From Lachnospiraceae bacterium (lineage in GTDB: Bacteria; Bacillota; Clostridia; Lachnospirales; Lachnospiraceae), in NCBI GenBank assembly GCA_022792535.1, contig JAAWBG010000021.1:43837-107836 (forward strand): a stretch of 64,000 bases of DNA, written 5' to 3'. The notes under the pieces were generated by a model. That model saw only the letters and a program-made list of their open reading frames with translations, searched no databases and was not told the DNA's origin. Both the position numbers and the translations under genes were made by a program. Shown piece by piece: positions 18,467-21,349 of this stretch; positions within the stretch are counted from its first letter, which is position 1, and the number at the start of each line of letters is the position of its first letter.

Positions 18467-19624
18467 TTATTCTTTCCAGATGGGGTGTTTCAGATTCCAT
18501 CCTTCCGCTGTTTTTTCCCAGATATGATCAGATCTCCAGGAATCAATAAATTCATGGAACTGCTCTTCTGTAATATCGCAGTATTTTAAGAAAGTATCAT
18601 AGTATTTCTGAGGAAATTCCCCGTCATATTTTTTCACCAGATCGATTCCTTCCTCCCGGTTAATTCTTCCATCTCGGATTTCGTGGGCGGCGTCTGCAGT
18701 AGTGCGGCCGATGCCGAACTTGATATAGGAAAGATAATAGTGGAATCCGTCCAATTTGTCGTCTAAGCTGGCATATTTAGAGTAAGTACCTTCGCTCCGC
18801 TCAGGATTGCAGACAAATCCATTGTTTTCTGAACAATAATGGTAATTTTCCTGTGGATCCCAATATTTGTAGTAACTGAAGAAGTGGATTTCCGTATTGT
18901 TTTTCTTGATATCTTCATAATCAGGAGCCATATACGGAAGCATATCTTCCTCAGTCAAACCATATTTGGTCCAGACTTCAGGTCCCATTCCTGAGAAGTA
19001 ATGTTTGTTGTGATCTGTAATCTCCCGTGTGGGCTTATCGGCGTTTTTCATGTCTCCGCCGTATTCTACTTCTCCATTCTCTCCATACATAATAAGGGAG
19101 ATACCGTATTTTACAGCGATCTGCAGAGGAAAATTTGTCTGTCCAAAAATAAAGGGCTGGAAAGGATCGCCTAAATGCTCAAAGGCAAGTTTTGTCAGCT
19201 TCCGGTTTACAGTTCCGTTGGGTCTGCCTAAAATATTATCGAATCCTCCGATATCAATAAAGGCGTCCAGATTTTTTCTTCCGATCTCTGTGGGTACAAG
19301 GGGAGACCATGTAACGGTAAGAGGATGCATACCATATTTATATTTCAGCTGGTGAGCTACGAAGCCTCCGTCTTTTCCGCCGCTGCAGGGTACGATCACA
19401 TCCCAGGAACCGTCTTTGGAACGGAATCGGTCGCAGAGTTCCTTTAATTCTTGTTCTCTTGCGTCCCAGTCTATGTTTCTTTTCACTTCATTAAATCTGC
19501 AGGCGCTGCAGACTCCTTCCTCGTCAAAAGTGATTCTGGGACGCTGGTTGGACATGGTACATTTTTTGCAGTACTTTACTTCTTCTGGTAAATGATACAT
19601 TTTGATTAAATCTCTTTTTTCCAT
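18467..19624 (-). CDS. N-acetyl sugar amidotransferase (WbpG/PseA-like)
   Basis: YCKKCTMSNQRPRITFDEEGVCSACRFNE; SGGKDGGFVAHQLKYKYGMHPLTVTWSP PP-loop. Confidence 0.88.
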   Translation of the reverse strand: MEKRDLIKMYHLPEEVKYCKKCTMSNQRPRITFDEEGVCSACRFNEVKRNIDWDAREQELKELCDRFRSKDGSWDVIVPCSGGKDGGFVAHQLKYKYGMHPLTVTWSPLVPTEIGRKNLDAFIDIGGFDNILGRPNGTVNRKLTKLAFEHLGDPFQPFIFGQTNFPLQIAVKYGISLIMYGENGEVEYGGDMKNADKPTREITDHNKHYFSGMGPEVWTKYGLTEEDMLPYMAPDYEDIKKNNTEIHFFSYYKYWDPQENYHYCSENNGFVCNPERSEGTYSKYASLDDKLDGFHYYLSYIKFGIGRTTADAAHEIRDGRINREEGIDLVKKYDGEFPQKYYDTFLKYCDITEEQFHEFIDSWRSDHIWEKTAEGWNLKHPIWKE

Positions 19625-19659: not shown

Positions 19660-19784
19660 ACCAACAAAAAAGACACTGCATCAAGTGCAGTGTTCCTAAT
19701 ATCATCACAATCCAATCAAAAAAGCGATTCCATTCGCACCTGACAAAATCCATTTTGCTACGGTTAGTTGTTTCAATTTTTACA
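19660..19784 (-). ncRNA. Candidate ~125-nt CsrA-binding sRNA or attenuator leader on minus strand
   Basis: Minus strand: CAAA-AUGGAU-UUUG (19744-19757), GCGA-AUGGAA-UCGC + U6 (19724-19737), further UUGGAU and UAGGAA motifs, then ACACTGCA-CTTGA-TGCAGTGT-CTTTTTT terminator (19664-19693). Confidence 0.5.
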
Positions 19785-19790
19785 AATTAA

Positions 19791-19817
19791 TCATCGGACA
19801 TAGTGTTGCAAAACTTA
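19791..19817 (-). promoter_or_regulatory. Sigma-D-like promoter (minus strand)
   Basis: Minus strand TAAG-N15-TCCGATGA. Confidence 0.45.
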
Positions 19818-19887: not shown

Positions 19888-19914
19888 TAAAGTCTTAAAA
19901 AAATTGACCGATAA
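19888..19914 (+). promoter_or_regulatory. Sigma-D promoter of flagellin gene
   Basis: TAAA-N15-ACCGATAA upstream of flagellin; ~215-nt 5' UTR. Confidence 0.75.
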
Positions 19915-20096
19915 AGATAGTGTAAACAAAAAGATGCGGATTGATACAAACGCATCGCAGTTTTCGGATTGCTAACCTAGGGGCGTCTGGAAACTTGAAA
20001 ATACTTAAATAGAACATGATAGCCCATAAATAAGCGGGCGTCATCACAGTCGTTTCAAGATAGAATATGAAGCGGCTGGAGTAAATTATTTTATTT

Positions 20097-20135
20097 TGCA
20101 GCATGGAGGCTGCAGTATATTCAAGGAGGAAAATC
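20097..20135 (+). promoter_or_regulatory. Predicted CsrA-binding hairpin plus Shine-Dalgarno in flagellin leader
   Basis: TGCAGC-AUGGAG-GCTGCA (6-bp stem, hexaloop with AUGGA) then TTCAAGGAGGAAAATC Shine-Dalgarno. Confidence 0.7.
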
Positions 20136-20137
20136 TT

Positions 20138-21349
20138 ATGGCAATGATCGTACAACACAATCTTACAGCAATGAATTCCAACCGTCAGTTGGGTATCACC
20201 ACAGGTTCTCAGGCAAAATCATCTGAAAAATTATCATCTGGTTACAGAATCAACCGCGCAGGCGATGATGCAGCAGGATTAAAGATTTCTGAAAAAATGA
20301 GAAGTCAGGTTCGTGGTTTGAATCGTGCTTCCACAAATGCACAGGATGGCGTATCCTTAATCCAGACCGCTGAAGGTGCTTTAAATGAAGCTCATTCTAT
20401 CCTTCAGAGAATGAATGAATTGGCAGTTCAGGGTGCTAACGACACCAACGAGAACATTGACCGTGAAGCAATCAACGAAGAGTTAGATCAGCTGACACAG
20501 GAATTGGATAGAATCTCTACCACAACACAGTTCAACAAACAGAACTTACTGGATGGTTCTTTCCAGAGCAAAAATCTTCATGTTGGCGCTAATGCAAATC
20601 AGAAGATTCAGATCAGTATCGACAACATGAATGCTGAGACATTAGGTCTGAGAAGCATCAAAGGTCAGGAATTAGGCGATACACAGAAAGGTAAAGAGAT
20701 CTCTTCTGTTACCTATAAGGGAATGACCTATCAGTGGGATGCAAGCAAAACAGGAACCTCTAACCAGGCATTGGCGCTCAGCGACTTTAAGGCTGCTATC
20801 TCCAATAAAGCTTCTGATGATCAGTATGCTCAGCAGGTTTCAGGAACAAGCATATTTTATCTGCAGACAGGCGACAGCACTACTCAGTATGCAACAGCAG
20901 CATCTGCTAAGGCAGCTGACGTCAGCGTAGCAAAAGCAGCAGCATCTGCAGATTTTGCAGCTAGTTTCGAGAAATATGTGGATACAGCAAATACAGCTGC
21001 AAATGGTCCGACAGTTGCAGCTTCCGGTGAAGAATTCTCCATGGATAAACCAGGCGTTGACAGCTATGCAAGAGCAAATGCAACTATCACTGCTGTACAG
21101 AATGCGATCAACAAAGTATCTTCACAGAGATCCGCTCTTGGTGCAATCCAGAACAGATTAGAGCATACAATTGCGAACTTAGATAACGTAGCTGAGAATA
21201 CTCAGGCAGCAGAGTCCCGTATCCGCGATCTTGATATGGCTTCTGAAATGGTTGAGTACAGCAAGAATAATATTCTTGCTCAGGCAGGTCAGTCTATGCT
21301 TGCTCAGGCAAATCAGTCTACACAGGGTGTATTGTCCTTGTTACAGTAA
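20138..21349 (+). CDS. Flagellin
   Basis: MAMIVQHNLTAMNSNRQLGITTGSQAKSSEKLSSGYRINRAGDDAAGLKISEKMR...ILAQAGQSMLAQANQSTQGVLSLLQ. Confidence 0.97.
   Translation: MAMIVQHNLTAMNSNRQLGITTGSQAKSSEKLSSGYRINRAGDDAAGLKISEKMRSQVRGLNRASTNAQDGVSLIQTAEGALNEAHSILQRMNELAVQGANDTNENIDREAINEELDQLTQELDRISTTTQFNKQNLLDGSFQSKNLHVGANANQKIQISIDNMNAETLGLRSIKGQELGDTQKGKEISSVTYKGMTYQWDASKTGTSNQALALSDFKAAISNKASDDQYAQQVSGTSIFYLQTGDSTTQYATAASAKAADVSVAKAAASADFAASFEKYVDTANTAANGPTVAASGEEFSMDKPGVDSYARANATITAVQNAINKVSSQRSALGAIQNRLEHTIANLDNVAENTQAAESRIRDLDMASEMVEYSKNNILAQAGQSMLAQANQSTQGVLSLLQ

Follow-up and report, generated by a model that had tools for sequence, protein, structure and literature searches.

A sigma-D-driven leader with paired ANGGA hairpins and an intrinsic terminator precedes sugar operons in a Lachnospiraceae genus and may act as a CsrA-responsive attenuator

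Introduction

The DNA analysed here (the window) is a 64,000-nucleotide stretch from a Lachnospiraceae bacterium. Its minus strand carries, from 19817 to 19667, a promoter of the sigma-D type, followed by a pair of neighbouring ANGGA-loop hairpins and then an intrinsic terminator. DNA and covariance searches of 29 genomes found seven copies of this arrangement in six species of one Lachnospiraceae genus, namely the window copy and six copies in five other species. Each readable copy immediately precedes, on the same strand, the gene that opens a surface or flagellin-sugar operon. Judged by sequence comparison, the element appears to be a cis-acting, terminator-containing leader cassette and not primarily a free CsrA sponge. 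An earlier note on this DNA had offered both a CsrA-titrating RNA and a CsrA-controlled attenuator, and the evidence from the sequences favours the attenuator. We propose, at rather less than an even chance, that a portable sigma-D cassette with an intrinsic-terminator attenuator run by CsrA and FliW couples flagellin-sugar nucleotide operons to the flagellin-export checkpoint.

Promoter, Hairpins and Terminator of the Leader

The promoter (19791..19817, minus strand) reads TAAG-N16-CCGATGA. The spacer is 16 when the -10 element is read as CCGAT, and the N15-TCCGAT given in the earlier note is the same site. The sigma-D-like promoter described there was confirmed and is kept in all copies. Five other copies have TAAAGT-N14-CCGATA, which marks the window's TAAG as a variant of a real promoter site. 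The window's genome encodes a sigma-D family factor, with one FliA/WhiG-type sigma factor above the cut-off.

Behind the promoter lie hairpin P1 (ACC-GUA-GCAAAA-[UGGA]-UUUUGU-CA-GGU; 19739..19766, minus strand) and, directly 3' of it and coaxially adjacent, hairpin P2 (GCGA-AUGGAA-UCGC; 19725..19738, minus strand). Both were defined by folding and alignment of six leaders, both have an ANGGA loop, and the distance from GGA to GGA between the loops is 20 nt. In the G014 and G006 copies P2 is GCGAA-AGGA-UUCGC. All four GGA motifs first claimed for the minus-strand leader are present (AAUGGAUU, AAUGGAAU, UUGGAUU and UUAGGAA) and two of them are in hairpin loops. Conservation is limited to these two; the others fall within an insertion unique to the window copy. 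When the leader was shuffled 20,000 times with its dinucleotides preserved, 0.245% of the shuffles had at least two ANGGA hairpin loops. Only one further minus-strand ANGGA hairpin pair in the 64-kb window is equally close, with weaker stems and inside coding sequence.

The intrinsic terminator (19673..19693, minus strand) folds as ACACUGCA-CUUGA-UGCAGUGU. As DNA it reads ACACTGCA-CTTGA-TGCAGTGT-CTTTTTT, and the T-tract reaches 19667. As first described, it precedes the amidotransferase ATG at 19624, and its pairing is maintained by two double (compensatory) changes among the copies. The unit from promoter to terminator would give an RNA of about 120 nt, and the end of the terminator is 43 nt from the amidotransferase gene.

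Copies in Related Genomes

The cassette is present in 6 of the 29 congeners, while csrA is present in all 29. A covariance search, which the earlier note had suggested for the loop and terminator arrangement, recovered relatives, and ANGGA is kept in both loops of all copies. A loose core pattern run against 85,488 species genomes returned only six copies besides that of the window, all in Lachnospiraceae and several from mouse gut. The same pattern had no match among 2.9 million viral contigs. A family sample of 397 genomes gave weak matches only, without promoter and core. Weak model matches outside the seven copies (20-32 bits) were taken as chance because promoter and core are absent. Rfam gave no relevant match to the leader, at the gathering threshold or at E up to 10, the CsrB/CsrC/Rsm models included.

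A 37-nt core is nearly invariant among the copies and the flanks diverge. The core sequence is CCGYAGCAAAAUGGAUUUUGUCAGGUGCGAAWGGAWUCGCUU, in which the variable loop letter falls on the N of ANGGA. The promoter spacer and the spacer between P2 and the terminator vary between species, the core far less. Because the P1 and P2 stems never vary, covariation gives no test of these two hairpins.

The window and G007 copies share one common locus and the remaining copies are at different loci. G014 has two cassette copies, 96 kb apart and before different sugar operons, that are nearly identical over about 370 nt, which suggests recent duplication or gene conversion. The likeness of these copies (L050 and L051, both on G014:C1) covers the cassette and about 270 nt ahead of it.

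Genes Behind the Leader

In the window the gene behind the leader encodes an N-acetyl sugar amidotransferase of the WbuX family (TIGR03573; 18467..19624, minus strand), and a WbuX amidotransferase is also found behind the G007 copy. The other leaders precede a WbuC-like cupin, below the family cut-off (G013), a PseC/LegC-like aminotransferase (G027), and an RmlC-like epimerase and RfbH (the two copies of G014). Six of the seven copies are readable in this respect; that of G006 runs off the contig edge. The start codon lies about 30 to 95 nt after the terminator, or after a second hairpin that follows the terminator in some copies. By eye, no obvious promoter was seen between terminator and gene in the six copies inspected. 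A same-strand gene directly behind a terminator, without an obvious promoter of its own, is most simply reached by read-through, so the element is best regarded as a leader. Where the second hairpin is present, read-through may be low. The attenuator suggestion of the earlier note therefore stands as to the leader position, which holds before the sugar-operon start in every readable copy, and its CsrA part stays putative.

Flagellin, CsrA and FliW in the Window and the Genus

In Firmicutes the best-studied target of CsrA and FliW is the translation of flagellin. The flagellin gene (20138..21349, plus strand) is divergent from the leader and has its own sigma-D promoter (19888..19913, plus strand). 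Its leader holds a hairpin that resembles the hag-type CsrA site, UUGCAGC-AUGGAG-GCUGCAG (20096..20115, plus strand), ahead of AAGGAGG. This AUGGA hairpin is common to most flagellin leaders of the genus, which makes CsrA control common to flagellin and the sugar-operon leader plausible, not proven. The window also encodes FliW (PF02623; 996..1460, plus strand), in agreement with what had been claimed for this genome, and CsrA (PF02599; 1462..1677, plus strand). Two more csrA-like genes lie outside the window in the same genome.

A second AGGA-loop hairpin, of the type uggua-aaAGGAuu-uacca, was seen about 30 nt after sigma-D promoters at L150 (G013:C8) and L151 (G014:C23). It is common to two species that also have the main element.

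Accessory csrA-like and flagellin operons of the genus adjoin a tyrosine recombinase gene (PF00589). At most such loci a sigma-D promoter points away from the csrA-flagellin operon. Inverted sites of 27 bp (TGCAAC-n15-GTTGCA) bound the recombinase and promoter region. At all 13 loci examined their 7-nt spacers match each other in inverted orientation, yet the spacers differ between genomes. An example is L143 (G000:C12, 2143-3416); the other loci of the set are L112, L120, L122, L127, L142, L157, L165, L173, L175, L177, L182 and L188. By their sequence layout these loci look like a Hin-like invertible promoter switch with a tyrosine recombinase. The putative switch would be in the OFF orientation at the 12 loci with a promoter. 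At L188 the two sites are about 190 bp apart and the recombinase is outside them. The second accessory csrA-flagellin operon of the window's genome (L055, G000:C71, 6947-8638) has one such site before csrA, and no recombinase was found beside the operon.

Proposed Attenuation by CsrA

The terminator of the leader could be governed by an alternative pairing. The proposed 5' strand of the antiterminator, CAGGUGC (19736..19742, minus strand), overlaps the 3' side of P1 and the 5' side of P2, and each of the six distinct leaders has its complement, GCACUUG, in the 5' arm and loop of the terminator. The antiterminator pairs are kept in 42 of 42 cells across these leaders, against 29-43% when the pairing is slid. 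When the RNA ends at the terminator loop, the antiterminator has the lowest predicted energy of all folds in five of the six leaders and comes within 0.3 kcal/mol of the best fold in the remaining one, and in the full-length RNA the terminator fold is favoured by 2.9-5.4 kcal/mol. Against shuffled terminator arms the antiterminator is only weakly unusual (p 0.01-0.29). Another candidate, in which CUAACC as 5' strand pairs with GGUUAG in the T-tract and the sequence after it, was rejected because it could not form until termination had occurred and some copies lack it.

A bridging CsrA dimer is reported to accept GGA motifs 10-63 nt apart, with an optimum above 18 (PMC7652899). The two ANGGA loops of the leader fall within this range, so that their 20-nt spacing suits such a dimer, and both CsrA and FliW are encoded in the genome. 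We suggest, at somewhat less than even chances, that the leader is an attenuator in which hairpins stabilised by CsrA oppose the antiterminator CAGGUGC/GCACUUG. Expression of the sugar operon would then need read-through of the terminator. When flagellin is backed up in the cell and occupies FliW, CsrA would be free. The free dimer would bridge the P1 and P2 loops and keep both hairpins closed, which would hold CAGGUGC off GCACUUG and lead to termination. When flagellin is exported, FliW would take CsrA away, the antiterminator would form, and the sugar gene would be transcribed. One switch would then govern both the supply of sugar and the translation of flagellin, the latter through the AUGGA hairpin and the Shine-Dalgarno site in flagellin's own leader. 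The terminated RNA of about 120 nt might additionally titrate a little CsrA.

If true, the FliW/CsrA checkpoint would extend to transcription of flagellin's sugar supply, so that flagellin would not be made without decoration, nor decoration without flagellin. The presence of the cassette before different sugar genes would suggest how newly acquired glycan modules join flagellar control. The setting of such wiring would be gut commensals whose flagellins meet host immunity. The literature searched holds no case of CsrA control of an intrinsic terminator, and no description of the element came up in searches for work on CsrA and flagellin glycosylation, CsrA and antitermination, or CsrA sponges in organisms that have FliW.

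Alternative Readings

The near-invariance of the core extends past the loops to the adjacent hairpins and to the fixed internal loop GUA/CA of P1, and this is more than CsrA needs. A reader other than CsrA is for this reason a serious rival, if a somewhat unlikely one. The core of the terminator-containing leader would then be read by an unknown RNA-binding antiterminator, by a small ligand or, as for the put and EAR RNAs, by RNA polymerase itself. Like EAR/ops-type elements, the leader stands in front of sugar operons of which some have several genes, but processive antitermination would be pointless for the window copy, which controls one gene only. The occurrence of ANGGA in both loops of all copies at a CsrA-bridging distance argues against such a reader, as does the lack of an Rfam match. 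Antitermination by LoaP is disfavoured by the loop type and by the count of NusG-family genes, which is one in 28 of the 29 genomes and none in a genome that is 63% complete; a second NusG (LoaP) was not found. The window has a ribosomal protein L10 leader (RF00557; 50864-51014, plus strand) downstream of the single nusG.

The discrete promoter-to-terminator unit, with two conserved GGA motifs and four in the window copy, could also be a stand-alone sigma-D-dependent sRNA that titrates CsrA in the manner of CsrB and leaves only leak-through for the downstream gene. The second hairpin past the terminator in some copies would insulate such an RNA. We consider this unlikely. Two conserved sites fall short of the five or more GGA motifs of a many-sited sponge, the cassette is missing in 23 of the 29 csrA-bearing congeners, and FliW is already in the genome. 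A trans-acting RNA has no need to lie beside the start of a sugar operon, where every readable copy of the cassette lies, and a general sponge does not explain near-invariant sequence outside the loops. The sponge of the earlier note is disfavoured on these grounds.

Less probable again is a plain promoter and leader that sugar clusters have come to share through recombination, with hairpins that do no more than guard the 5' end and a terminator that keeps expression at a fixed low level. The near-identical G014 copies and the different loci occupied agree with it, but between species both spacers have diverged far more than the core. A short leader peptide (frame ...ITVAKWILSGA...) as the cause of conservation is highly improbable, because the frame, open with ATG in G013, G014 and G006, lacks any start codon (ATG, GTG, TTG or CTG) in G007 and G027 and has only a TTG without ribosome site in the window, and because the core changes are non-synonymous (N/K, I/F).

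Comparison with Known Systems

EAR, put and ops/JUMPStart are conserved elements near the starts of polysaccharide operons or ahead of terminators. The leader described here resembles them in its place, near a sugar operon start and before a terminator, and differs in having no sequence relation found to them and no Rfam match. The LoaP/dfn leaders (PMC12691694) likewise have a small hairpin ahead of a leader terminator. They depend on a UNCG tetraloop and a NusG paralog, whereas the loops here are UGGA/ANGGA and neither LoaP feature was found. CsrB, CsrC, RsmY and RsmZ are also short terminated RNAs with ANGGA in hairpin loops. In contrast to the present element, which lies in an operon leader and has two conserved sites, they are many-sited and free-standing. 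In the pgaA leader of Escherichia coli, CsrA promotes Rho-dependent termination with rut sites (PMC7652899). Both are leaders of polysaccharide-type operons in which CsrA remodels the RNA toward termination, the CsrA part being putative here, but the pgaA case depends on Rho and ours has an intrinsic terminator and a possible antiterminator. In the hag/fliC leaders of Bacillus subtilis and Clostridioides difficile, CsrA covers the Shine-Dalgarno site and represses translation (PMC7652899, PMC11898703). The sites of the present leader are both ahead of an intrinsic terminator and away from the start codon, unlike those of hag/fliC. The two systems are alike in having a pair of GGA sites of which one is in a hairpin, in being driven by sigma-D, and in the presence of CsrA together with FliW.
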